Shown piece by piece: positions 9,101-36,100 of a stretch of DNA of 64,000 nucleotides (the stretch's first letter is position 1; each line of letters opens with the position of its first letter). Made by a program: the position numbers and the translations under genes. The notes under the pieces are model-generated. The model saw only the letters and a list, made by a program, of their open reading frames with translations. It ran no database searches and had not been told where the DNA came from. The stretch is taken from positions 11,832,361 to 11,896,360 of the forward strand of contig CM020501.1 of the NCBI GenBank assembly GCA_009823395.1. The letters are read 5' to 3'. This DNA comes from Thamnaconus septentrionalis (Eukaryota > Chordata > Actinopteri > Tetraodontiformes > Monacanthidae).

Positions 9101-12100
9101 CACCTGGAGAAAGAAAAGTTAGCTTTCAGAAAAGGCTGCTTGGATGTATTACAGGATGGCCAACTGAACTGAAGTAATATGGTCATTTAGGAAGCCAAAA
9201 AAGGAACTCGGTGGCATTTTTTTTTAATGGGACTGAACTCTGGACTAAAGTGCGTTAACACTGAAAGTCCTACTTCTCCACCAGAGCAAACATGGGTCTG
9301 TTGACCTCGCTGAACATTTACGGCTTCATATATATAGATATATGTATTTTAAAAAAAGCTGTGCTTTTGTCCATTTATGAACATTCATACATATCATAAG
9401 CTGGCCAAAAACAAGCATTTACAATTTAGACTCAGCAATAAAGTGTGACACAATCGACAGTGAGGCCCCACAAAGTTAAGTTAGTGGGTAAACAAACTGT
9501 CAATGTCAGCACCTGCAGGCTGTGGCTTCAGCAACTGTGCCAAATAGCTTGGGTTCATTTTGTGCATGAGGGGGAGGTGGAAATGGATCATCTCGCTATT
9601 TTGGCTTTTGTTTTTTTTTCCAAATAAATGAATGATGATGTATAATATTTTGATGGAACTGACCTGGTATGACAGGAGCCCGTGGGCTGATGTGTTTATA
9701 AATAATGTGTTTTCAACGTTGCCCTCCTCAGACGGGAGGAAGATAAGTTTAAAAGATGCCTTCCCTCTGGGTGGAATCACCTGGCAACAAACGCAGACGT
9801 TTCATTAGTTCAACAGGTTTAGTTAAAAGAACGACAAGATAAGCCTGCACACGCGAACACTTACTCTTCTGTGAGAGAAAGGTATGTAAAAATGTCTGCT
9901 GGTTGTAAACATGGACAGCAGCGTCACAGGAACTTCCTGGCTGGGGTTGTGTATATATATGGTTTCAGCTCTCGCCAGCCCCAGCGGCCTGCAAGACAGC
10001 AAAGTATCACATGCAGAGCACTTCCAAAAAAGAAAAGAGAAAAAAAGACATGGAAAAACACATCCCCAAAGAAACATGGTCCTTCAATGTAGGAGAGCTT
10101 AAAAAAGAGGAGAGATAGAAAGGCGTTAAGCCTCCAAGCGAGCAGGAGCAACCTAAGCTTAGAACTCAGCCATTTCGGGCGTCTACATGAAAGATACTGG
10201 TATCATCTTTTAGCTAGGCTGTGCTGCAGTTAAATGTCTGTTGTTATGGGCGTTGTTCAATCACAAGCCAGCATTTATGACTGACATGTTTTAATAGCCT
10301 TCTATCATGTTCTGCCTGCCAGTTGAGGAAAAAAAAAAAAAAGAAAAAGAATGTTACGCAATCAGTGTCCTTTATAGTGGATCTTGCATTGTCAAAGCCG
10401 ATCCAACGTTCTAACTATATCCACAAATATGAAGAGTTATGGCTTAGAGTCTGGTTGGGGGGCGTTGCCGCGAAAGCGGTTGGAAAAAGCAAAAATGTTT
10501 TTGATGATTCTTTGTAATGAAGGTCAGACTATGTCTTACTGAATTTTCAAGCCCGTTGGACTTTGCGCTTTCTGAGCGTTATGATTTTAATTTGAAAACC
10601 AAAAGCGTGGGAATAACTCACTTCCTGTTTGTCGGGGGACAAAGGTTAGAGGTGCAAAATGTCGGGCTTGAAGAGACGAGCAGCGTGGGTGTTTTCCCCA
10701 TCTTTTTGGACCTTCCTAGTGGAAGCTAGGGCCATTTGTAATTTGTGGTCAATTGTAGTTGGGCGCCTTTTGGGGCGCCACGAAAATGGTTGGAAGCATC
10801 CCTTTTTTTGATGATTCTTTGTAATGAAGGTCCAGTCTATGTCATACTGAATTTTCAAGCCCGTCGGACTTGGCGCTTTCTGAGCTGTATGCTTTTAACG
10901 TGAAAACGAAAAGTGGGAATAATTCACTTCCTGTTTGTCGGGCGACATAGGTTAGAGCGTCTGAAATGTCGGGCTTGAAGAGACGAACAGCGTGGGTGTT
11001 TCCCCATCTTTTTTCGACCTTCCTAGTGGAAGCTAGGGCCATTGTAGTTTTTTGGACAATTGTAGTTGGACCCCTCTAGGGGCGCTAGAAGTGGAATTTT
11101 GCCTTTTGTCTTCATTTTCTTTCATTGTGTACCAGTTTCTACCTCCGTGCGAATTTGGTGGGTTTTGGAGCATGTTTTGTAAATAATAATAATAATAATA
11201 ACTAGCCCTGCAAGCAGGATTCGCGGGACTGAGCCGCCACGGCCCGACGACCCCGATGACCCCGACCTCTGCCAGCGCCCGGCGACTGATGAGACAAATA
11301 CGTGGATGTTTGAATGGCGTCTATACGACTTCCCTAAAGGAAACTGCAGCCATTTATGTGTGTTAAAAGAGGAGAGATAGAGAAAGGCGTTAGGGCTCCA
11401 ACCGAGCAGGAGCAACCTAAGCTTGGAACTCAGCCATTTCGGCGTCTACATGAAAGATACTGGTATCATCTTTTAGCTAAGGCTGTGCTGCAGTTAAATG
11501 TCTGTTGTTATGGGCGTTGTTCAATCACAAGCCAGCATTTATGACTGACATGTTTTAATAGCCTTTGAGCACGTTCTGCCTGCCAGTTGAGGCAAAAAAA
11601 GGAAAAAGAATGTTATGCAGTCAGTGTCCTTTATAGTGGATCTTGCATTGTCAAAGCGATCCAACGTTCTAACTATATCCATAAATATGAAGAGTTATGA
11701 GTTAGAGTCTGGTTGGAGGGCCGTTGCAACAGCAGTTGGAAAAAGCAAAATTAATACACACAGGCTCACAAATCCACATAAAAACATTAGTGGCACGAGT
11801 TAGTGCGGAGGATGCTCTGGTAGCTTTGCTGAAAAGTTACTTCAGCATAACAGTGAGGCTGAAAAAGGTTCAGGCCCTAACCTGATCGTAGAGGTGTTAC
11901 GCATTTATTGAATCATGTAAAAATCAGCTTTACACTGTTGAAAAGCATTAGCTTACACGTTAACACACATTGACAAGTGTAGTGGAAATAATTATTTTCC
12001 TGACAGTTTATAGGTACAAGAAGAATTCAGTGCACTTACCTTGCAGAGGTTAGACAATGGCTGTCGTCGTCGAGTTGCTCACCGTAAGAGGGGACAATTC

Positions 12101-15100
12101 TAAGAGCCTTTGTCTGACAGGATATTTATATGTCACAATTTGGACATTCTGATGTGGACATTCTGTTCCCCCACCTTAAGTCTTTCTGATCCAGCCCATC
12201 AGCAAAGTGACTCCATTCTTCTTGCCCGCTTTGATCTGACTGGTTAGTTACAGTTGTGGTCAGAAGTTTACATACACTTCATGTTCCTACACTAAATCTC
12301 ATGCTAGGTCCTGAAGCTACGTTGGTGCACTTGTCAGTGATGGTGTGCTTCATTAATTGTAGGCATGCCGTGGCCGACGCAGCACTTTCAGAAAAGATGT
12401 CTAAACCAGTATATAAGTCTAACGCCGGTTCACACTGGGCGGAAGTGCCGCGGCGCCGAGCGCTTCCATTCGGCGCCCATGTTAATCAATGTAGTAGTTC
12501 ACACCAGAGCTCCACTCATCTTTTAGCTAGGCTGTGCTGCAGTTAAATGTCTGTTGTTATGGGCGTTGTTCAATCACAAGCCAGCATTTATGACTGACAT
12601 TTTTAATAGCCTTTGAGCATGTTCTGCCTGCCAGTTGAGGAAAAAAAGGAAAAAGAATGTTATGCAGTCAGTGTCCTTTATAGTGGATCTTGCATTGTCA
12701 AAGCCGATCAACGTTCTAACTATATCCACAAATATGAAGAGTTATGGCTTAGAGTCTGGTTGGGGGCCGTTACCGAAAGCAGTTGGAAAAAAGCAAAAAT
12801 GTTTTGATGATTCTTTGTAATGAAGGTCAGACTATGTCTTACTGAATTTTCAAGCCCGTTGGACTTGCGCTTTCTGAGCCTGATGATTTTAATGTGAAAA
12901 CCAAACAAGTGGGAATAACTCACTCCCTGTTTGTCGGGGGACAAAGTTAGAGGTGCAAAATGCCGGGCTTGAAGAGAGCGAGCGTGGGTGTTTTCCCCAT
13001 CTTTTTGGACCTTCTAGTGGACGCTAGGGGCATTTGTAATTTGTGGTCAATTGTAGTTGGGCGCCTCTTGAGGGGCGCCACGAAAAGCAGTTGGAAAAAT
13101 CCCTTTTTTTTTTGATGATTCTTTGTAATGAAGGTCCAGTCTATGTCATACTGAATTTTCAAGCCCGTCGGACTTGCGCTTTCTGAGCCTTATGCTTTTA
13201 GCGTGAAAGCGAAAAGTGGGAATAATTCACTCCCTGTTTTTGGGCGATATAGGTTAGAAGCGTCACGAAATGTCGGGCTTGAAGAGGCGAGCAGCGTGGG
13301 TGTTTCCCCATCTTTTTTCGACCTTCCTAGTGGAAGCTAGGGCCATTGTAGTTTTGGACAATTGTAGTTGGATGCCTCTAGGGGCGCTAGAAGTGGAATT
13401 TTGCCTTTTTGTCTTCATTTTCTTTCATTGTGTACCAGTTTCTACCTCCGTGCGAATTTGGTGAGTTTTGGAGCATGTTTTGTAAATAATAATAATAAGA
13501 ATAAACATAGCTTAAATACAATAGGGTCTTTCGCCATTGCGAAAAGACCAGTTCATTCGAACTGGTCTTCCGCTGGCTCAGTCCCTAATAAGAATAAACA
13601 TAGCAAATACAATAGGGTCTTTTCGCCATTGCGAAAGACCAGTTCATTCGAACTGGTCTTTCACTGGCTCAGTCCCTAATTAAAGCTGCAAGCAGCGTTT
13701 GCGGGACTGAGCCGCCGTGGCGGCGACCCCCGGCGACCCACGGCGACCCCCGGCGACCCCGACCCCTGCCGGCGCCTGGTGCCCCACGACCTCTGCCGGC
13801 GCCTGCAATTGCCCCGACCTCTGCCGGCGACTGCAATTGACCCCGACCCCTGCCGGCGCCTGCAATTGCCCCACGACCTCTGCCGGCGCCTGCAATTGAC
13901 CCTCGTCCTCTGCCGGCGCCATCTGCTGAAAAAGTCTATGCAAATGATGCAGATTTTTCAAAGTTTTTTAAATTTTTTGGAAGATGTTGTCAAATCTAAA
14001 TTATAGGCCTTAATGAGACAAACACGTGGGTGTTTGAATGACGTCTGTATGACTTCCCTAAAGGAAACTGCAGCTATTTATGTCTGTGTTCAGAAAGAGG
14101 GAGAAGAGGTGTAATTAATCATCATAAGCCTGTGTATGGAAATGATGCAGATGTTTCACCTGCATTTTTTTATTTTGTTGGTTTGTTTTTTTGAAGTGGC
14201 CGTAAATTGTAAAAATAAAGGTCTTGATGAGACAAAAGACGTCGGTGTTTGAATGACGCCTGTAGCACTTTCTGTGAAGGAAACTGCAGCCATTTACAGT
14301 ATATGGCTGTTGAATAAGAGGGAGAGCAAGAGACAGGCGTGAGGGCTCCCAACCTGCAGGAGCAGAGGTGGCGCCGCTAGCTCCGCTAGCTCCGCTTTTG
14401 GAAGCATGGACATCTAAACTCAGAACTCCGCCATTTCGGCGTCTACAGGAAAGATATTGGTATCTTCTTTTAGCTAAGAGCTTCAGCTATCTAACTATGT
14501 ATAGTTATCCGGGGTGTGAGTAACGGTGTAGGCGTGGTTAGTGAAAATACGATCTTTTTTTTTTTTTTTCGTTCAGGCGATCTCAAACAAGTCGAAATAT
14601 TTAACTTCCTGTTTGTCCTAGGCCAAAAGTTAGAAGCGTCTGCGACGTAGAAGCTCGATGAGACGAACGCGTGGATATTTGTTGCATGAATGTCCGATGT
14701 TCCTAGAGGCGCTAGGTGCATTTTAGGTATTTTTTGGTGGTGTTTTATTGGATTTTGGTCAGTTTTGACATGCATCGACTTTAAAGGGCTGTAAAATGAA
14801 AGCGGTGCAACGCATCGGACCATTGTTTTTGCGTTGACCTTCTGACAGTCCAGTCTTTGCAATACAAAAGGTTTGAAAGTTGCAGCATTCACGGTTGTTG
14901 AGTTGTGTCACTGTGGATGATTTCAAACAAGTGTAAATAACTAACTTCCGGTTTGTCTGTGGTCAAAGGTCAGAGTGTCAGAATGTGGGTCTCTATCCAA
15001 GGAACAGCGTGGGCTTTCGTCCCATGTCGTTTCGACCTTCCTAGAGGAATTAGAGGCATTTTAATTTTTGCGACGAGATTTTAAGCGATTTTTGGTCAAT

Positions 15101-18100
15101 TTTCAATGTACGTGACTTTGGAGGCCGTTGCAGCAGTTTGAAAATTTCACTTTTTTTGATGATTGTTTGGAATGAAGGTCCAGTCTATGTCATACAGACT
15201 TTTCAAGCCCGTCGGACTTGCGCTTGCTGAGCCTTGTGTTTTCTGATTTCCAAAAATTTGCGATAGCTGACTTCCGGTTTGTGTGGGGTCAAGGTCATCA
15301 TGAGCAAATAGCACCCAATTGCGGCGCGCAGCGTGGGTGTTGGTCCCATGTCTCACGACCTTCCTAGAAGAAAAAGTTTTGAAAGCAGGGGCAAAAACAG
15401 GAAAAAATACAAGTGGAAATAACTCACTTCCTGTTTGTCGGGCGCCAAAAAAGTTAGGCGTCACGAAATGTCGGGCTTGGCCGAGACGAGCAGCGTGGAT
15501 ATGTTTGTCATATTTTTTGACCTTCCTAGTGGAAGTTAGGGTTAGTGATCACTTTTTACACCAGTAGAAATTTTTGGACGCCTGTAGGGGCGCTAGAGAC
15601 TGGAATTTTGCCTTCTACTTTTCATTTTATCAAATTTTAGCGGTTGTGACCTGCGTGCCAAATTTGGTGACTTTTTTATGTATGTTAAGGGGGTCAAAAT
15701 GGGCTTCAAAGCGAGCGTTAATAATAATAATAATTAAAGCTGCAAGCAGCGTTTGCGGGACTGAGCCGCCCGTGGCGGCAGCGACCCCGGCGAGCCCACG
15801 GCGACCACGACCCCTGCGGCGAGCGCCTGCAATTGCCCCACGACCTCTGCCGACGCCTGCAATTGACCCTCGTCCTCTGCCGACGCCATCTGCTGAAAGA
15901 AGTCTATGCAAATGATGCAGATTTTTCAAGGTTTATTTATTTATTTTTTTTGGAAGATGTTGTCAAATCTAAATTATAGGCCTCAATGAGACAAAGACGT
16001 GGGTGTTTGAATGACGTCTGTATGACTTCCCTAAAGGAAACTGCAGCTATTTATGTCTGTGATCAGAAAGAGGGAGAAGTGGTCTAATTAATCATCATAA
16101 GCCTGTGTATGGAAATGATGCAGATTTTTCACCAGCATTTTTTTATCTTGTTGGTTTGTTTTTTGGATGAGGCTGTCAAATGTAAATTATAGGCGTTGAT
16201 GAGACAAACACGTGGATGTTTGAATGACGTCTGTAGCACTTTTGTAAAGGAAACTGCAGCCATTTACAGTATATGGCTGTTGAATAAGAGGGAGAGCAAG
16301 AGGCAGGCGTGAGGGGCTCCTGACTATGAGGAGCAGAGTTAGCGCCGCTAGCTCCGTTAGCTCCGCTTTTGGAAGCATGGACATCTAAGCTCAGAACTCC
16401 GCCATTTCGGCGTCTACAGGAAAGATATTGGTATCTTCTTTTAGCTAAGAGCTTCAGCTATCTAACTATGTATAGGTATCCGGGGTGTGAGTAACAGTGT
16501 AGGCGTGGTGGTGAAAATACGAACTTCGTTTTTTTCGTTCAGGCGATCTCAAACAACTCGAAATATTTAACTTCCTGTTAGTCCTAGGCAAAAAAGTTAG
16601 AGCGTCTGTGACGTAGAGCTCGATAGAGACGAACGCGTGGATATTTGTTGCATGAATGTCCGATGTTCCTAGAGGCGCTAGGTGCTTTTTTAGTTATTTT
16701 CTGGTGTGTTTTTTGGGATTTTGGTCAGTTTGACATGCGCATCGACTTTAAAAAAGGGCTGTAAAATGAAAAGCGGTGCAACGCATCGGACCATTCTTTT
16801 ACGTTGACCTTCTGACAGTCTAGTCTTTGCAATAGTAAAGGTTTGAAAGTTGCAGCATTCACGGTTGTTGAGTTCTGTCACTGTGGATGATTTCAAACAA
16901 GTGTAAATAACTAACTTCCGGTTTGTCAGGGGTCAAAGGTCAGGGTGTGAGAATGTAGGTCTCTATCCAAGGAACGCGTGGGTTTTCGTCCCATGTCGTT
17001 TCGACCTTCCTAGAGGCGCTAGAGGCATTTAATTTTTAGCGGCCCGTCATTTTGAGCGATTTTTGGTCAATTTTCAATGTGCTTGGACTTTGGAGGGCCG
17101 TTGCAAAGAAAACAGTTTGAAAGTGACCTTTTTTGATAATTGTTTTGGATTGAAGGTCCAGTCTATGTCATACTGACTTTTCAAGCCCGTCGGACTTGCG
17201 CTTCCTGAGCCTGCGTGTTTCTCTGATTTCAAAAGTGACGATAGCTGACTTCCGGTTTGTGTGGGGTCAAAGGTCATCATATCAGCAAATAGCACCCAAT
17301 TGCCGCGCAGCGTGGGTTTTGGTCCCATGTCTCTCGACCTTCCTAGAAGAAAAAGTTTTGCAAAAGGGGCAAAAACAGGCCAAAATACAAGTGGAAATAA
17401 CTCACTTCCTGTTTGTCGAAGGCGCCAAAAGTTAGGCGTGCGAAATGTCGGGCTTGCAGCGAGCGAACAGCGTGGATATGTTCGTTATATTTTTTGACCT
17501 TCCTAGTGGAAGCTAGGGGCCATTTCTAATTTTTTTTATACCAGTTGAAATTTTTGGACGCCTGTAGGGGCGCTAGAAAGTGGAATTTTGCCTCTTACTC
17601 TTCATTTTATCAAAATTTTTAGCGGTTCTGATCTGCGAAGCAAATTGGTGACTTTATGTATGTTAAGGGGGGTCAAAATGGGGTTCAAAGGCGGCGGCGG
17701 AAGAATAATAATTAAAGCTGCAAGCAGCGTTTGCAGGACTGAGCCGCCCGTGGCCACGGCCGACCCGGCGACCCATGACGACCCCGACGTGGCCCGGCGA
17801 CCCCGGCGATCTCCGACTACTGCGTTGCCGACGCGACAAAGCGACGCAGCGACCCCCGACCCTACCCCGGCGTCCTGCAATTGCCCCGACCTCTGCCGGC
17901 GCCTGCAATTGCCACGACCTCTGCGGCGCCTACAATTGCCCAAGCTCTGCCACGGCGCGGTATTGACCTCGTCCCTCTGCCGGCCGCCATCTGCTGAAAG
18001 AAGTCTATGCAAATGATGCAGATTTTCAAAGTTTTTTTTTTTTTTGGAACATGTTGTCAAATCTAAATTATAGGCCTTAAGGAGACAAAGGCGTGGGTGT

Positions 18101-21100
18101 TTGAATAGCGTCTGTATGAGCTTCCTAAAGGAAACTGCAGCTATTTATGTCTGTGATCAGAAAGAGGAGAAGTGGTCTAATTAATCATCATAAACCTGTG
18201 TATGGAAATGATGCAGATTTTTCACCTGCATTGTTTTATTTTGTTGGTTGTTTGTTTTTTTGAAGTGGCTGTAAATTGTAAAATAAAGGTCTTGATGAGA
18301 CAAACACGTCGGTGTTTTGAATGGCGCCTGTAACACTTTGGTGAAGGAAACTGCAGCCATTTGTGTCTTTGAGAATGTTGGACAAGAGGTCTAATCATCA
18401 TAAGCCTGTATATACAAATGATGCAGATTTTTTACCTGCAGTCTTTTGAAGTGCCCATCCAAATGTAACATATATAGGCGTGATGAGACAAACACGTGGA
18501 TGTTTGAATGGCGTCTGTTGTACTTTTGTAAAAACTGCAGCCATTTACAGTATATGGCTGTTGAATAAGAGGAGAGCAAGAGACAGGCGTGAGGGCTCCT
18601 CAACCTGCAGCAGCAGAGGGAGGCGCCCGCTAACTCGTTAACTCGCTTTTGCAAGCATGGACATCTAAGCTCAGAACTCCGCCATTCCAGGCGTCTACAG
18701 GAAAGATATTGGTATCATCTTTTAGCTAAGAACTTCAGCTATCTAACTATGTATAGTTATCCGGTGGGTGAGCAACGGTGTAGCCGTGGTGGTGAAATAC
18801 GATCTTCGTTTTTTTTTTTTTTTCGTTGAGGCGATCTCAAACAACCTCGAAATATTTCACTTCCTGTTTGTTGGATTCCAAAAATTAGAGTGTACGCATG
18901 ACGTAGAGCTTGATGAGACGAACGCGTGGATATTCATTGCACCAATTTTCGATGTTCCTAGAACTTCTGGTTTGCATTTTAGTTTTTGGTGTAGGCTTTT
19001 AGGATTTTGGTCAGTTTTGACATACATCGACTTTCAAAGGGTTATAAAATAAGCAGTGCAACGCACATCCGGACAATTCTTTTCGTTGACCTTCTACGGA
19101 AGTCTAGTCTGTTTAATACACGAAAAGGTTTGAGAGTTGCAGCGATTGGCCGTTTTGTTGAGTACTGTCACTCTGGATTATTTTCAAGAAGTGGGAAATA
19201 ACTTCTTCCGGTTTGTCAGGAATTCAAAGGTCAAGTGTCAGAATGTGGGTCTGTATCCAAGAGGACGCGTGGGTTTTAGGTCCATGTCATTTTGACCTTC
19301 TAGAGGGCGCTAAGAGGCATTTTAATGTTTCAAGGCGGGTTTTGAGGCGATTTTGCTCAATTTTCAATGTCGCGAGCCAACTTTGGAGGGCCGTTGAGCG
19401 GAAGCGTTTTGAAAATCGATTTTTTTGATGATTCCGTGGATTGAGGTTCAGTCTATAATATACTCAATTTTCAGTAAATCCCGGACTTGCGCTTTCTGAG
19501 CCTTGTATTTTCATCTGTTTTCCAAGCAAGTGACGCTAGCTCACTTCACGGTTTGTCAATGGGGTCAAGGTCAGCATATCAGCAAAATGAGTCTGGATTG
19601 CCCGCGCGTGCGTGGTTTGGAGGCCAATATCTGTCATTATTCCCTAGAAGGAAATACGGTCTCCCGCGAGGATGAAGACGTGCATTTCAATAAAAGTGAA
19701 ATAACTCACTTGCAGCCTGAATATACGTTAGGCGTGCTGAAATGTCGGGAGAAACCGGGCAGCCAGGGCGAGCAGCGTGTGAAATTTTCCCCAGATTTTT
19801 TCGACCTTGCTAGTAGATTTATAGACCAGACAATTTTTGGAGCGTCTGTGGGGGCGCTAAGAGAGTGGGTTTTCCTTCTACTCTTCATTTATAAAATTTT
19901 CGCCAGTTCTGACCTGAGTGCAAATTTGTTGTTGACTTTTTATGTATGATACTGATAAAATACGGGGTTTCAAAATAGCGGTATAAGTATAATAATAATG
20001 TTAGTCAGCTGCAAACAGCGTTTGTGAGACTAAACCGCCGTATGTGACCCATGCGACCCACGACGACCCGGCGTTGACGACCCGACGACTGGCCCAGGTA
20101 CCTACCGGCGTACCAAAAATTGCCCCACTGACCTGCAGCGCCTGGTGCCCCGGCCCCTCACGCCGACGGCCGGCCACGGGTGACCCCCCGACCCTGCCGG
20201 CGCTACGGTACCCCACGACCTCTGCAGGCGCCTACCAGGTGACCTGAAATCCTCTGCGGCTGTCCTGCTGAAAAAAGTCTATGCAAGTAGTACAGATTTT
20301 TTCAAAGTTTTTTAAATTTTTTGGAAAGATATTGTCAGAAATCTAAATTATAAGCCCTCAATAGAGACAAACGCGTAGGGTGTTTGAATGGCGATCTATA
20401 TGAACTTCCTACAAAGGAAACTGCAGCTATTATGTCTGTGTGTTCAGAAAAGAGGAGAAGAAGGTCTAATTAATCATCATAAGCCTGACGTACATGTGGA
20501 AATGAGTGCAGATATTTCACACCTACATTTTTTTATCTTTGTTAGTTTGTTTTTTGAAGTGGCGTAAATTGTAAAATAAAGGTCTTGATGAGACAAAAAC
20601 GTCGATTGTTTGAATAGCCTTCACTGCTTAAATGGTGAAAAGCTGCAGCCATTTGTGTGTGAAAAAAGCTGGACAAAGAGGTCTAATCATCATAATACTG
20701 TATATAAATGAATGGTGTTTGTATACAGTCTTTTTTTGAAGCCCTATAAAATAGCGTAAAATAAAAGGTCTTGATGAGACAAACATCGGATTATTTGAAT
20801 GACGCCTATAACGCACTGGGTGAAAGGAAACTGCAGCCATTTGTACAACAATGAAAACTGGACAAAGAAGGTGGAATCATCATAAGCCTGTATATGCAAA
20901 TGATTTTAGATTTTTAACCTACAGTCTTTTGAAGTGCCTGTCAAATGTAACATATAGAGCCTTGATGAGACAAACTGCGTGGATGTTTGAATGGCGTCTG
21001 TAACACTTTTTGTAAAGAGCTGCATACCATTTGCAGTATATGGCTGTTGAATAAAGAGGAGAGCAAGAGACAGGCGTGAGGGCTCCCCAACCTGCAACAG

Positions 21101-24100
21101 CAGAGGGGTAGCGCCGTAGCTCCGATTAGCTCCGCTTTTTGCAAGCATGGACATCCTGGCTCAGAACTCCGCCATTCCGGCGTCTACAGGAAAGATATTG
21201 GTATCATCTTTTAGCTAAGAACTGACTGCTATCTAACTATATATAGTTATGCGGTGTAGGTGAGCAACAGTGTGAGCCGTGAATTGGTGAAAATCGATCT
21301 TCGTTTTTTTCGTTGAGGCGATCTCAAACTTCGAAATATTTCACTTCCCTGTTTGTTGGATTCCAAAATTAGAGTGTGCCTTGACGTGAAACGAGTAGAG
21401 ACGAAGCGTGGATATCTGTTGCACCAATTTTGATGTTCCCTAGAGGCTCTGGGTGCATTTTTTTAGTTTTGGTGTGTTTTGGAGTTTGGTCGGTTTTGAC
21501 ATACATCAACTTTCAAGGGTTATAAAGAGAAAAGCGATTGCAGCGCATCGGACCATTCTTTCGTTGACCTTCTGAGGTCTAGTCTGTTTAATACAAAGGT
21601 TTGAAAGTTGCAGCATTGACGGTTTGTTGAGTACTGTCACTCTGGATGATTTTAAAAGTGTGAAATAGCTAACTTCCGGTTTGTCAGGGGTCAAAGGTCT
21701 GAGTGTCATCAGATATGTGGGTCTGTATCCAAAGAACATATGGGTTTCGTCCCATGTGTCGTTTGACCTTCCTAGAGGCGCTAGAGCGCATTTTAATGTT
21801 TTCAGCGGGATTTTGGCGATTTTTGCTCAATTTTTCAATGTCGTCAACTTTGGAGGGCGTTGAGCGGAAACGTTTGAAATCGATTTTTTTTTTGATGATT
21901 CCGTGGATTGAAGGTCCAGTCTATGCTCATACTGAATTTTTCAACCCGTCCGGACTTCAAGCTTTTCTAACCTTATTATTTTCCTCTTTTCCAAACAAGT
22001 GGCGGTAAAAACTCACTTCCGGTTTTAATATTGGAGGTCAAGGTCAGCATATCAGCAAAATAGGTCTGGATTGCCTGCTGCAGCGTGCGTGATTGGCCCA
22101 TATCTGTCGCGACCTTCCTAGAAGGAAATAGGTGTTCTGACGAGGATGAAAGACATTTTCAATAAAAGTGGAAATAACTCACTTCCTGTATGTGGGACGA
22201 TATGGATTAGGCGTGCAATGTGGGACAACGAGGCGAGCAGCGTGGTACCCCCATATTTTTGACCTTCCTGGTGGAAGCTAGGCCCATTCAAAATTTTTGC
22301 CAGTTTCTACCTATGTGGCGGATTTAATTTATTTTTATATGGTGAGGGGTCAAAATGGGGAAAAAGGGAGGAATGTGTAAAAATAATAATAAGAAAAACA
22401 TTACAAATACAATGAGTCTTGCCTTGCGAAACCTGCTCTGACATGACAGGCCTTGCTGAGCCAGTCGTAAAGCTGCAAGCAGCGTTTGCGGGACTGAGCC
22501 CCGTGGCACGACCCCGGCGACCCGGCGACCCCGCGACCCCGCGACCCCGACGACCCCGACCCCGCGGCGCCTGCAATTGCCCCGACCTCTGCGGCGCCTG
22601 CAATTGCCCCGACCTCTGCCGGCGACTGCAATTGACCCCGACCTGCCGGCGCCTGCAATTGCCCCCGACCTCTGCCGCGCCTGCAATTGACCTCGTCCTC
22701 TGCCCGCCATCTGCTGAAAAAGTCTATCAAATGATGCAGATTTTTTCAAAGTTTTTTTAAATTTTTGGAAGATGTTGTCAAATCTAAATTATAGGCCTTA
22801 ATGAGACAAACAGGGGTGTTTGAATGGCGCTGTATGACTTCCCTAAAGGAAACTGCAGCTATTTATGTCTGTGTTCAGAAAAGAGGGAGAGCTGAAAAAT
22901 TGAACCAACAAGTAAGCCTGCAGGAAATGATGCAGATGTTTCACCCGTATTTTTGCCTTTGTTGGTCGTTTGGCGCTCGGAATTGTAAAATAGTTAGCCT
23001 TGATGAGACAAAAGGCGTCGGTGTTTGAATGATCGTCTATAGCTTACGTTATAAAAAAGGCAAAGCCATGTATTCGGTATAAGGCTGTTGAATGAGGAGA
23101 GCAAAGAGACAGGCGTGAGGGCTCCCAACCTGCAGCAGCAGAGGTAAGCGCGCTAAGTCTCCGCTAGCTCTCGCTTTTGGAAGCATGGACATCTAAGCTC
23201 AGAACTCCGCCATTTCAGTGTCTGGGGAAAGATATTGGTATCTTCATTTAGCTGAGAGCTTCAGCTATCTAACAAATGTATAGTTATCCGGGGAGCCGAG
23301 TAACAGTGTAGGCGTATGTTGGTGAAATGCCATCTTAATCTTTTTTACGTTCAAGCGTTCAAAAACCTGTCGAAGATTTCACTTCCCCTGTTGTCCCAAG
23401 CCAAAAGTTGAGCGTACGGCGTAGAGCTTCGATGCTAGGCAAAACGCGTAAGATATTTGTTGCATAGATATCCGATGTTCTGAAGGCGCCAGTGCACCGA
23501 TGTACCTTTCTGGTGTGTTTTTGGATTTTGGTCAGCTTTGACATGCATCGACTTTAAAGGGCTGTAAATGAAAGCAGTGCCGCGCATCGGACTATTATTT
23601 TCGCGTTGACCTTCGACAGTCCAGTCAGTGCAATACAAAAAGGTTTGAAAGTTGCAGCCTTCACTATTTGTTGAGTTGTTAATACTGTGGATGATTTCAA
23701 ACAAAGAATAATTAACGCCGGTTTGTCAGGGGTCAAAGGTCATCATGTCAGATATGTAAAGTCCATATCCAAGGAACGCGTGGTTTCGTCCATATAGTTT
23801 TCAGACCTTCAGAAGGCGCATGAGCGATTTAATTTTACGAGGGATTTTTGTGATTTTGATCAATTTTCAATGTGCATAGATTTGGAGGCCGTTACGAAAG
23901 CGTTTGAAAATTTCACCTTTTTCGATAATTATTTGGAATGAAGGTCCAGTCTATGTCATATTGACTTTTCATTACCCGTCGGATTACGCTTCCTGAGCCT
24001 TAGTTTTCTCTGATTTCCATAAAAGTGAGGATAGCTGACTTCCAGTTTGTGTGGGGTCAAAGGTCATGCATATAACAAAAGCACGCATGCCACTGACAGC

Positions 24101-27100
24101 GTGGGTTTTGGTCCATCTCCTCGACTCTTCATGAAAGAAAAAGTTTACGAAAAGAGGCAAAACAGGCCAAAATACAAGTGAAATAACTCCGCACCTAGCA
24201 TGTCAGGCGCCCAATGTTAGAGCCGCGCGAGAATGTCGGAAACGACAGAGACTGAGGCCGCGCAGCGATATATTCGTTATATTTTTTGACCAGCATAGTG
24301 GAAATTTGGAATGGCTGACGAGCAAACACTTTTACACCAGTAGAAATTTTTGGACGCCTGTAGAGGCGCTAGATAATGAGCGTTTTGGCTTCTACTCTTC
24401 ATTTTATAAAATTTTCGCCAGTTCTGGCGTTAGGTGCCAAATTTGGTGACTTTTATGTATATGATGAGGGGGCCAAAATACCTGGGGTTCAAGGCAGGCC
24501 CGGAGTATAATAATAATAATAATTAAAGCTGCAAGCAGCGTTTGAGGACTGAGCAGCGTGTGGCGTGCGACCCCCAGCAGCCCAAGATGACCCACGACCC
24601 TGCCAGCCTGCAATTGCCCCGGCCTCTGCAGGCGCCTGCAATTGACCCCGTACTCTGCAGCGCCACATCTGTTGAAAAGAAGTCTATACAATGATGCAGA
24701 TTTTCAAATTTTTCTTTTTTTTTTTTGGAAGATGTTGTCAAATCTAAATTATAGGCCTTAATGAGACAAACACGGGTGTTTGAATGACGCTGTTGACTTC
24801 CAAAGGAAACTGCAGCTATTTTTGTTGTGTTCAGAAAAGGGAGAAAGGTCTATCATCATAAGCCTATGTATGGAAATGATGCAGATTTTTCCCGTTTTTA
24901 TTTTGTTGGTTTGTCTTTGGTGAGGCTGCAAATTAAATTATAGGTTTGATGAGAAAACCCCCGGTGGAACGTCTGTAGCACTTTTGAAAGGAACTAGCCT
25001 TTCAGAATGCCTTTGTAAAGGAAGAAAGGACAGGCTGAGGGCTCCCAACCTATGAAGGTACCGTAGTCCGTTAGGCTTTGGGTGGAATCTAACTCGTCCG
25101 TCGGCTACAGGAAAATATTTACTTCTTTTGCTAAAGTTCTTCTCTAGTATAGGACCGGGGTGTGAGAACGGTTAGGCGGGGGTGAAAATAAATTCGGGTT
25201 TTTTGCAGGCGATCTCAAAAACTCGAAATTTTAACTTCCTGTTTTTAGGAAAAGTTAGGCGTCGGGACTGATGAGCAAACGGGGATATTTGTTGCATAAT
25301 GTCCGATGTTCCTAAGGGCGTGGGTTTTGTTATTTTTCAGGTGGTTTTTTTGGATTTTGGCATTTTGACATGCATGATTTAAAGGGCGTAAAGACGGTGA
25401 AATCCACCTTTTTTATTATTTGAAGTCCAGTCTTTGTAAAATTTGAAATTCAGCTTCACTTTTTGAGCTTGCTTTGATTTCAAAAAAATAACTAACTGGT
25501 TTGTGGGGGTCAAAGGTCATCATTCAAAAGGCATCCAACGGTGGGTTTTGCCCATGTCTTTCGACCTTTAGAAAAGGGGCAAGGCATTTTAATTTTGGGG
25601 GATTTTTCGTTTTGGCAATTTTAAGTCTGAATTTGGGGGCCTTGCAAAGGGCGGGAAAATTTCTTTTTTTTAATTTTTGGAAGAAGGCCACTTTCAATTG
25701 ATTTTAAGCCCGTGGGGCCCGCTTTGATTTTGCCTTTTCTATTTATAAAAGTGGGTAGTGATTGGTTTTGTGTGGGGTCAAAGGTCATCATATAAAAAAA
25801 AATTGCCGCGCTGGGTTTTGGTCCCAAGGAAGGGCCAAAAAAAGGGTTTTTAAGGGCGTCTTTGCCCAAACTTTCCAAAAGCCCCCCCCCAAAAAACTGG
25901 GGGGTTTTCCCCCAAAAAAGTTAAATTAAAATTAAATTAAATTTTAAAGTGTGGGTTTTGGGCCTTTATGCCATTTCTTCATAAAGGGGAGTTTAAAAAT
26001 GTTTTTCCTTTTGTTTTCCCAAAAAATTGGGAAAAAAATTTTTAATACCCTAAGGCCCGGGGGGTTTTAAAACTTTTAGGGGGTTTTGTTAAAAAATTTT
26101 TGGTCACTGCATTTTTTTGGGTTTATTTAAAAAAAAAAGGAAATATTTTTGGAAGAAATTATGAAGGGGGCTGGTTTATAAATAAGGTTTTCCCCGGGGG
26201 GTTTTAGGGGGGAAAAAGGGGTTTAAAACCCTTTGGGGGAAAAAAAGGGAAAAACTTTCCCAAAGGGTTTAAATTGTTAAAAGACAAAGCCGCCCCGGAA
26301 CCCCTTTTTTTTTAGGGTAAAAAGTGGGTTTTAAAAAAGGACACCGGGAAACCCAAAAAAGGTTTTAAAAAAAAAGGGGTTTTTCCCAGGGAAGAAAACT
26401 TTAACCTCGGCCTCAAGAAAAAGGGTTTTTAAAACCCCACCCCAAAATTTGGGTCCCAAAATTAAGTTTAAAGCCCCGCCCCGGGGGTTTAGGAAAAAAG
26501 AAAAAGGAAGCCTGGGCCCTTTTGGCCCGGGAAAATAAGAAACTTTAAATTTTGAAATTTTAGTTTTGGGGGGAAACAAATTTTGGGAAAAGGGAAAAAG
26601 TTTAGGAAAAAGGGCGGGTTAAAAGCCCCCGGGGGTTTTTTCCCAAAACACCCCTTTTCGGGGAAAATTGGGTAATTTTGGGCTTGGGGGAAAAGGGGTT
26701 TTTTTTTTGGTTTTTAATAAACCGATTTTTAAATGGTTTGGCCCAATGGGTTAAAAATGTTTTTTGGGTTTAAAAAAAGAATTTCCCCGGGGGCCCGGTT
26801 TTATTTTTTATTTAAAGGGGGAAATTTTTCCCTTGGTTTGGCTTAGGGGTTGGGGGGCCTTCCCTTTTTTTTTGTTCTTTGTAAGGGGGTTTGATTTTTT
26901 TAAATTTTTCCCCCCGGGGGCGGCGATGGATTTTTGGGCCCCCACTTTGGGGAAAATCTCCGGTCCCAAAAAGGGGGTTTAAATTTTTTAAAAAAAAAAA
27001 CGGGCCCCGGGGGCCCATTTGGACCCCAGGGGGCCCAAAAATTGGGGCATTTTGTAGGGGTTTGGCCAAAATTTTGGAAATTTTTTTTAAAAAGAAAAAA

Positions 27101-33100: not shown

Positions 33101-36100
33101 AAATGAAAACGGGGGTTTTTTGGCCTTATTTTCCTTAAAGGGCTTCACTTTGGGTTTGGGGTTGGTAAATTTAAATTTGGGGTGGGCGCAAACCCGGGGG
33201 GCCCCGGGCCCCGCCCCCTGGTTTTTTCCGGGCCCAAAAAATTTCTCATTCCGTTTGGGGTAAGGACCCCTTTAAAGTGGGCTTGAAGGGCGACCTTCGT
33301 AGAAGAAAAAAGTTTTGAAAAGGGGCAAAACAGGCAAAATACAAGTGGAAATAACTCACTTCCTGTTTGTCGGGCGCCCAATGTTAGGCGCACGAAATGT
33401 CGGGCTTGACGAGACGAACGCGTGGATATGTTCGTTATATTTTTTTGACCTTCCTAGTGGAAGATAGGCGGCGAACACTTTTTACACCAGTAGAAATTTT
33501 GGACGCCTGTAGGGGGCGCTAGATAGTGGAATTTTTGCTTCTACTCTTCATTTTATAAAATTTTTTACCGGTTCTGACGTTCGTGCCAAATTTGGTGACT
33601 TTTTATGTATGATGAGGGGCCAAATGGGGTTCAAAGACGCGGAAGTATAATAATAATAATAATAATAAACATTACAAATACAATCGAGTCCGCCTTGCGA
33701 AGACCTGCTCTGACATGAGCAGGCCTTCGCTGAGGCTCAGTCCCGAATAAACATTACAAATACAATCGAGTCTTCGCCTTGCGAAGACCTGCTCTGACAT
33801 GAGCAGGCCTTCGCTGAGGCTCAGTCCCGAATAAACATTACAAAAACAATCAAGACTTCGCTTTGCGTAGTCCTGCTCTGATGAGAGCAGGCCTTCGCTG
33901 ATGCTCAGTCCCGAATAAACATTACAAATACAATCGAGTCTTCGCCTTGCGAAGACCTGCTCTGACATGAGCAGGCCTTCGCTGAGGCTCAGTCCCGAAT
34001 AAGTGATTCCCACATGAATAACATCCAGTTAGCTGCTACAACAGGAAAGATTTAGACTGCAGATAAAGTGGCATACATCACTTTTATGGCCGTGTGACAT
34101 TCTAAAATGCATGGGGGAATGTCAGCGTGTTTTAAAAAGTTGACTGATACCACAACTTCTGCCGCGAGAGGCAGTATTCTGTGTAAATATTAGATATATG
34201 CAAAATTAATCGAGGTTAAGATCCATTTAGGCACAAAAGAATGCGGCGAGTCTCTTTGTGAGCTAAATGGAACAGAACCGTGATCAGCAGCACAGGAGCA
34301 GCTGTGCCAACCACACTTCTTCTCACTAAAACGGCTGCTGTGAAAGAGAAATAGGTAGAAAAAAAAAAACAGCGGCAAAAAGCTGAGTCTTCTCTGTAGG
34401 TGATGTTAATGTTTGATACTAGTTTTGTTAAATACACTGATGAGGAACATCATGTTTCCCTTCTTTTAATGCACCCTGCACAAGCCGGCACAGCCAACCT
34501 GAGAGAAAAATTGAGTTGGGCAATTAGATGAGTTACTCCTGGTAGTGACCGCAGAAATAAGAGTCTTCTGCTCATATGAAAAACTAACTGCTGACAAAAA
34601 TGAGCAGTTTGTCTTTGACCTGAGACGATTACAAGCCTGAGCTGCAGGGGTGCAATCTAAAAAAGGCCCGTCAGAAGTGAAACCACATACACAAATAAGG
34701 ACATGGGGAAGGTTGTTAAGAGGCTTTGTGTTACAGCAGCACGAGCGGCGCTCTGCCTTCGGCCAGGTCTGCTGCAAACCATTACACACGGCCCTCCTCC
34801 TGGGTGACAAATTATCAAAACCTTGGCCTTTTCCAAAGCAGCTCGTAACTTAATGCCCTTTGGTGAGGGCACCGGCCGTTTTGACTCGCTGCTGCCTCAC
34901 ACAAGGGAATAGTGCCTAATTGTGTTGCTTTGCATTTCGTTATGAGAAATTCCCATGTGAGTTACATTCTGCATTAAATGAGTCCTTTATTGCCAAAGAC
35001 TGTTGAAGTCGGGAACAACAGTTGTGACCTTTATTCACGTTCGTTCTGCAATTTAATCATTTTACAACACAGCCATTATCAATTATTGATATGGTGCACG
35101 TTGAGTTTGTAGGAGAGATACTACAGCAAAGTCACTTTATTTTGGGTGTGAAAAACATTTTTTTTATCTCTCCTACTGAACACTAACCAACTGACTTCGG
35201 TTTGGCAAAACAGTCGTTATTTTATGGCTGATAAGTTGCAACTCTTGCAACTCGGGAACCCATAAATGCTGCAAATTTTTCAAATATTAGAATTAATTCA
35301 TGAAAGCAATCTTTTTGAAGACGGTTCACAGTGAAACAGCAGCATCTAGACGTCTTTGACCTCTTCGCTAGAGACGTTCAAATCAAGTCGAAACAGAAAC
35401 ATCTTTCACTTCCTTTTGCCTCAGAGATCAACTTCACTTTCTCTCAAGCCAAAAGACGTGCAGGCCAAAAAAACAGAATCATGAGACGTGGTGGCTAAAT
35501 TAAACATTCCTTCTTGTTCTCTTGAGCCATAAAATGAATCAAGTGTGGAATAATTTGGTTTCATGGTCACTCTGAATTTTCTTCATGAAAAGAATGGCAG
35601 AGGGCTTGCTCTTGCGCGACAAAGTTCAGCTGCAGATTCCCCAAAATGTTTGTGCAAGCATGAAAGGCAATTATGTAATTAGCGTTTCCTACATTTCTTT
35701 TCCACTTGCAATCTTCAGCCACATCTTCAGGCGAAGTTATCACTCAGAACAGTGAACAGGAGGTTCCCAAAGGAAAAAAGGTGCTTTCTGAAAACGACTA
35801 AAACTACTGAGCACACATTGTACTGCATGTGTGTATTTGTTTTTAGCTGAAACAACATTGATTCTGGTGCAAGGCAATACATTCGATACGGAATGTTCCG
35901 TAGTGGGGCAGCAGCGACATTCTTAACCCTGATCACTCTCTTGTCTCAGAGTGCATGATGGGAAAAAGGGGGCAGACTGCCTTACTTGGACATCCTGGCT
36001 GTTTGTTCAGAAATCTGCCCTTCCTGACGTCTGTGTCCCGCCATCTTATTTTGACTGTGTTTAAATTTAGTCGGTGGAGTTGGGCTGAGTGACGTAGACC

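Follow-up and report, generated by a model that had tools for sequence, protein, structure and literature searches.

Hairpin repeats as probable iterated 5′ termini of a non-autonomous Helentron in a teleost-like genome

Introduction

Helentrons and the non-coding HINEs (DINE-1) are described as having subterminal inverted repeats at either end, a 3′-proximal palindrome, microsatellites and central repeats, and as inserting at TT (PMC4067079). The domain set named for Helentrons is of the Rep, helicase and endonuclease type (PMC4067079, PMC6431247), as in the two long open frames reported below. In Helitron2, at most 2 bp separate the 5′ inverted repeat, which is part of a hairpin, from the border, and the 3′ repeat lies 20–30 bp from the border, upstream of a hairpin; Bao and Jurka recorded compensatory base mutations between two related Culex families, and proposed that the two inverted repeats, by pairing with each other, open the 5′ hairpin and fix the end point (PMC3627910). 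In work on Helitrons, nicking at the 5′ end by a Rep nuclease is followed by displacement of one strand, with a 3′ hairpin as the termination signal (PMC4778049, PMC5876387). Tandem Helitron arrays with many 5′ ends and one 3′ end (Xiong et al., as summarized in a review) are attributed to rolling-circle copying past a lost terminator (PMC12628747). Already on record are Helentrons, HINEs and their tandem arrays, as are compensatory changes at the ends of Helitron2; how Helentrons recognize start and stop is, in the parts of this literature available to us, a proposal rather than a tested step.

The present study concerns hairpin repeats in a 64,000-nt stretch of contig CM020501.1 (positions 11832361-11896360; hereafter the window), which are very probably the iterated 5′ termini of a non-autonomous Helentron (HINE) of a teleost-like genome, read on the minus strand. 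This element has in common with the HINEs/DINE-1 as described (PMC4067079) its paired inverted repeats, the 3′ palindrome, TT, microsatellites, central repeats, the lack of coding sequence and a Rep/helicase/endonuclease partner, but its 5′ unit is present in 1 to 7 copies per cluster, with subtypes mixed.

Results and Discussion

Anatomy of the Array

Repeat inspection of the window identified four type-B 5′-terminal units of 82–84 nt in direct repeat at 33664..34002 on the minus strand (33664-33745, 33746-33829, 33830-33913 and 33914-33997, the third being the copy 3 subtype), with relatives elsewhere in the genome. They form the 5′ border, in element orientation, of the whole array, and AATAA closes them, extending to 34002. 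Two type-A units of 91–93 nt, also direct repeats on the minus strand, lie at 13493-13585 and 13586-13680. The initial annotation had described hairpin repeats with compensatory changes; the units at 33664-34002 and 13493-13680 bear this out, while a seventh, degraded type-B unit with many single-base deletions (22394..22467, minus strand) and the rod fold described below had been missed. On the minus strand each unit starts directly after TT, at CGGG or AGGG, with the 5′ asymmetric terminal inverted repeat GGGACTGAGCC; a single base (C or A) separates TT from GGG, as in the 5′ spacing of Helitron2.

The elements stand head-to-tail between 10 and 34 kb, with the hairpin unit as the 5′ terminus on the minus strand. 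Self-comparison delineated, at 10103..25826 on the minus strand, an array of non-coding element bodies of ~2 kb, all in the same orientation and with internal subrepeats of ~300 bp, and, next to the type-B array, an element body with (AAT)n (33291..33663, minus strand; 86% to 15356-15734). Read on the plus strand, the repeat starts with TTAAAGCTGCAAGCAGCGTTTGCGGGACTGAGCC and the hairpin unit finishes with GGCTCAGTCCC; because these are 11-nt inverted partners, exact in most copies, we take the unit to be a 5′ terminus on the minus strand, starting with GGGACTGAGCC. Subterminal inverted repeats are accordingly present at both ends (GGGACTGAGCC and GGCTCAGTCCC, 11 nt exact).

The 3′ end reads GGCTCAGTCCC-GCAAAC-GCTGC-TT-GCAGC-TTTAATT on the minus strand, which places the inverted repeat upstream of the hairpin and 25 nt from the border (6 + 12 + 7), within the 20–30 bp of Helitron2, compared with 38–60 in mite Helentron families (PMC4067079). 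All 3′ termini of the window lie on the minus strand. The one at 13681..13713 comprises GGCTCAGTCCC, GCAAAC, the GCTGC-TT-GCAGC hairpin and TTTA, and the same 36-nt end occurs near Helentron frames elsewhere in the genome. The 3′ termini of further tandem copies, at 15735..15767 (where the joint holds just (AAT)n), 17713..17745 and 24524..24555, and a degenerate terminus at 20001..20036 (GCTGTTTGCAGC), have joints without a 5′ unit, and the terminus at 22468..22500 abuts the degraded type-B unit. A variant terminus at 11202..11235 has the hairpin CCTGC-TT-GCAGG followed by (ATT)n; this variant was seen at three places (window position 11202, locus L048 and contig C16), which probably reflect one event.

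Canonical Helitrons (Helitron1) have a 5′-TC, a CTRR-3′ end and no inverted repeats, whereas the element studied here has the ends CGGG... and ...CTTTAATT and does have inverted repeats. Helraiser of bats, a canonical Helitron, differs likewise in its TC...CTAG ends, its lack of inverted repeats and its hairpin at the 3′ end; it is comparable in having a terminal hairpin read by shape (exchange of the stem kept ~90% of activity), in forming circles and in its head-to-tail joints (PMC4778049, PMC5876387).

Several copies carry a GC-rich minisatellite of ~28–30 bp period just inside the 3′ end (13721-13920, 15805-15887, 17867-17951, 22508-22704 and 24606-24664). Within the array, ACAGTTGTGGTCAGAAGTTTACATACACTT at 12250-12279 looks like a possible Tc1/mariner transposon end.

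Parts of the assembly are poor, which bears on unit counts and on single-base differences. Between 25800 and 33290 homopolymers are stretched (mean run 2.7 vs 1.4–1.5 elsewhere; 74% of bases in runs of at least 3 vs 21–29%) in what looks like a bad assembly consensus, and a homopolymer-compressed comparison of the 25.8–33.3 kb stretch with the array, treating it as a distorted element, gave no matches (reversed control, 2). The array also seems to lose single bases between 18000 and 25800, chiefly at 22394-22467, where deletions account for most of the departure of the 22.4 kb unit from type B; single-base differences in 18000-25800 are therefore not trustworthy.

Autonomous Partners and Identity of the Element

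A search of the same genome (474 Mb assembly) with the Pfam profile PF14214 returned six matches above the cut-off, compared with none in 14 control genomes. At two of five inspected places the matches lie in long open frames, of 2,690 codons on contig C16 and 2,744 codons on contig C12. Helitron_like_N, PIF1 and Exo_endo_phos scored over the cut-off in both frames, the C12 frame having been scanned as two pieces and the C16 frame over the last 1,702 of its 2,690 codons; OTU and DUF6570 were also found in the N-terminal piece of the C12 frame. The genome thus holds an autonomous partner with a Rep-helicase protein and a C-terminal endonuclease, as expected of a Helentron. A protein search with an E-value limit of 1e-20 yielded 1,067 relatives of the partner protein; among the 120 listed, the closest reach 69–70% identity and are in Myripristis and Salarias. 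With a 474 Mb assembly and best-named relatives from teleosts, the window is animal DNA.

About 2.6 kb downstream of both frames, on the same strand, lies the 3′ end of the window element, identical over 36 nt. This end was present at three of the five inspected Rep-domain places (C12, C16 and, as a variant, the broken copy on C14) and was not seen at the other two (C12 at 496 kb and C16 at 20.3 Mb). The C16 copy has a type-B unit 22.4 kb upstream of its 3′ end; over the intervening stretch it is collinear with the C12 copy in separate pieces of 86–98% identity. The C12 copy has no unit on its own 5′ side, where it meets an older 3′ end through (ATT)n. Further Helentron-like coding stretches, mostly broken, were noted at G000:C14:454388-462000 (L089), G000:C16:20295001-20305000 (L088) and G000:C12:486001-506000 (L086 and L087); among these the 3′ end occurs at L089 alone, as a variant.

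The window element body aligns with the first ~1.7–1.8 kb of the C12 and C16 copies at 86% and with their last ~0.1 kb at 76–80%, and for this reason we take it to be a deletion derivative of the Helentron; a non-autonomous copy thus shares ends and sequence with its partner. Helentron is a closer name for it than Helitron2, because the partner has an endonuclease domain. A stem-loop close to a short-repeat (AAT)n tract might also suggest the 3′ tail of a non-LTR retrotransposon, recognized by reverse transcriptase, but the shared ends belong to a Rep/helicase element, which makes this origin extremely improbable.

A 17-base end motif was found in three stretches of a viral collection and in 21 prokaryote stretches, against ~30 expected by chance (an estimate for 257 billion bases), and further searches of viral, phage and plasmid collections gave no match. 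A full-text literature search found no mention of the element end sequence.

Units and Insertion Sites across the Genome

With a pattern that fixed both flanks only and left the stems free, 369 units were matched genome-wide (174 and 195), and none with the reversed pattern used as control; the units are therefore not a product of chance. The first 100 matches fall into 59 clusters (38 single, 12 double, three triple, three of four units, two of five and one of seven), these sizes being lower bounds obtained with exact anchors. Within these clusters the units are spaced 82–94 nt apart, with one spacing of 116, and neighbouring clusters at most 25 kb apart are on the same strand in 20 of 20 cases. 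The unit is 82–99 nt long, and different subtypes stand side by side within single 5′ ends.

Insertion sites were viewed at 39 loci surrounding matches to the type-B array. The set is biased (of 310 candidates 40 were scored, with 42 matches reported), and every locus in it has at least two units. TT precedes the first unit in all 39, in keeping with the TT or T-rich target of Helentrons on the 5′ side, and the exact joint of GCAGCTTTAATT with CGGGACTGAG occurs in ten loci and a variant joint in two. At a short element of ~950 bp with three 5′ units and its own 3′ end (L046, G000:C9:21496800-21499500), useful for defining the borders, no target-site duplication was visible by eye. Three insertions (L037, L053 and G000:C16:19634898) have the 5′ flank GTGATTTAGCGCTGTACAAATAAA in common, apparently another repeat that served as target.

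The AATAA or (AAT)n flanks, together with five window joints that lack units, might suggest that the unit is a separate minisatellite or tiny mobile unit living in (AAT)n tracts beside the element. We consider this highly unlikely: the unit has an exact 11-nt inverted repeat in common with the far end of the element, the C16 Helentron copy has one unit on its 5′ side, all 39 loci of the biased set have (TTA)n after the units and the element body where read further, and single units make up most clusters among the first 100 matches.

Folding of the Unit

The initial annotation proposed two stems and a folded form, either RNA or a single-stranded intermediate. The latter fits the identity of the element as a Helentron derivative, but the fold is a different one: in the six intact window units the lowest-energy structure of the element strand under DNA parameters is one rod, and the two-stem fold is 3.8–7.4 kcal/mol weaker in all four units compared. 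Since the segment GGTCTTTCGC pairs either upstream or downstream, the rod and the two-stem fold are mutually exclusive. The rod pairs GGG, CT and GCC of GGGACTGAGCC, so that the 5′ inverted repeat is held in a hairpin as in Helitron2.

Folded on the minus strand under DNA parameters, five of the seven units have z-scores between −5.7 and −6.5, and copy 3 has −3.6; the damaged 22.4 kb unit has no rod and folds no better than its shuffles (z +0.31). When 3′ ends are folded alone, their small hairpin shows no gain in stability over shuffles (z −0.30 and +0.29). Folding of both strands, a check put forward in the initial annotation, gave strong folds on both with RNA parameters in the three units used (z −6.9, −6.1 and −4.0 on the minus strand; −7.5, −6.7 and −4.8 on the plus strand), the plus strand being as strong or stronger in all three. 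In all 50 haplotypes compared, the element strand has the lower DNA free energy, with shuffled sequences showing part of the difference. The strand assignment hence rests on end anatomy and on free energy (in part a matter of composition), since the RNA-parameter z-scores do not favour the minus strand.

These strong RNA folds on both strands would suit units maintained for a folded RNA, be it a small RNA or a structured transcript, instead of a DNA end. However, the units mark the 5′ border of a Helentron, to whose 3′ end an inverted repeat links them, and scans of the window with Rfam (gathering score) and ARAGORN returned no RNA family and no tRNA, so that an RNA function appears very unlikely.

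Compensatory Change and Covariation

Type A and type B were compared by taking the rod from the second type-A unit alone and aligning it by hand with the second type-B unit over 24 comparable pairs. All 24 pairs are kept despite 11 substitutions, compared with a mean of 16.2 under random placement, and 0 of 200,000 trials reached 24; under a plus-strand reading 22 pairs are kept (P 0.0003). Copy 3, set against the same type-A rod, keeps 22 of 24 pairs despite 15 substitutions (P 3e-5). Four rod pairs have changed on both sides, one of which hinges on the alignment of a small indel, and these double changes are located in the outer, middle and tip parts of the rod. Inversion of whole palindromes, named in the initial annotation as an alternative source of the A/B differences, does not account for them, since by inspection an inverted A tip does not yield a B tip and the double changes span all three parts.

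The second-stem arms given earlier (AGTTC/GAACT in A, TGCTC/GAGCA in B) are correct and their changes compensated, but just two of the five pairs differ (A-T to T-A and T-A to C-G). Likewise, copy 3 has the reported T-to-A change with its A-to-T partner, a second stem longer by one pair and a GATG loop, but an extra A-to-T change in the same arm creates a T.T mismatch in stem 1. Because its haplotype is common (13 of 81 units counted) and has one stem-1 pair compensated but another broken, it is weaker evidence of covariation than was claimed.

The covariation check on many copies, also suggested at the outset, gave a mixed outcome. The first 100 genome matches give 47 distinct rows, in which 93.8% of rod cells pair (1,064 of 1,134), compared with 23.5–48.1% for slid partners. 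Rod pairs with double changes number four, and slid versions of the rod have 0–4, up to as many as observed; for the two-stem fold, 393 of 431 stem-1 cells pair, with one double-change pair against 0–3 in slid versions. At the most variable rod pair, the third state is matched in four of seven haplotypes, and five others with A have A opposite (A.A). The 25 column pairs that rank highest in mutual information include one rod pair and no stem-1 pair, a test confounded because the split between subfamilies A and B dominates it. One-sided changes on the element strand leave more G.T than A.C in cells (71 vs 12), and hardly so in sites (8 vs 7).

These pairing-preserving changes are best read as selection on a single-stranded rod, which we regard as likely but short of proven because subfamily structure confounds the covariation. 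A serious rival holds that the element is the same and that mutation produced the complementary differences, through arm-templated repair (quasi-palindrome correction or template switching) spread by gene conversion or copying. It is in line with double changes confined to few branches (the A/B split and the copy-3 subtype), with subtypes mixed within unit arrays, with the recurrence of identical copies, and with mutual information that is mostly subfamily signal. On the other hand, several of the A/B differences are one-sided G.T changes that are still paired on one strand, which correction would not leave, and the double changes are spread over separate rod segments; we consider this mutational origin possible, if rather unlikely.

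Compared with Helitron2, the fish variation exists among hundreds of copies in one genome and the partner has an endonuclease domain (PMC3627910). FoHeli1 and FoHeli2 of Fusarium also comprise related subgroups whose 5′ hairpins have a GAA loop in common but differ in the stem, with a 3′ inverted repeat to match; their hairpins are described as much shorter, with one 5′ end per element (PMC5148889).

Proposed Mechanism

The sequence itself shows the anatomy, the partner genes that have the same ends, and the differences from one unit type to another that preserve pairing; what follows carries the published Helitron mechanism over to the fish element by analogy. The Rep/helicase of the partner Helentron would nick at the 5′ unit, and one strand would then peel off until a stop marked by the 3′ hairpin and by pairing of the two inverted repeats. 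The rod would be read as single-stranded DNA, its pairing kept by selection. Head-to-tail arrays could arise from bypass of the stop or from insertion beside an older 3′ end, and candidate routes to the iterated 82–99 nt unit are slippage, unequal exchange or rolling-circle restarts. As in the tandem arrays of Xiong et al., 5′ ends outnumber 3′ ends; there, as the review describes them, whole truncated elements repeat, whereas the fish element also repeats its terminal unit alone (PMC12628747).

A more speculative view, which we think doubtful, is that the 5′ unit is a modular initiation cassette, amplified and shuffled among Helentron copies, and at the same time a two-state switch between the rod and stem 1 with an inverted-repeat mini-hairpin, in which end-to-end pairing could flip start to stop. 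If so, several units would mean several start sites per element.

Conclusions

The unusual part of the finding is a 5′ unit iterated up to seven times; otherwise this is an ordinary transposon family. In the portions of the open-licence literature searched, we found no description of a reiterated 5′ unit of mixed subtypes. The genome offers hundreds of naturally varied 5′ hairpins of at least three stem types, along with long open partner frames bearing the same 3′ end, and hence a set for testing whether the termini are recognized as folded single strands. That one copy can have several termini bears, moreover, on the origin of Helitron arrays and satellites.
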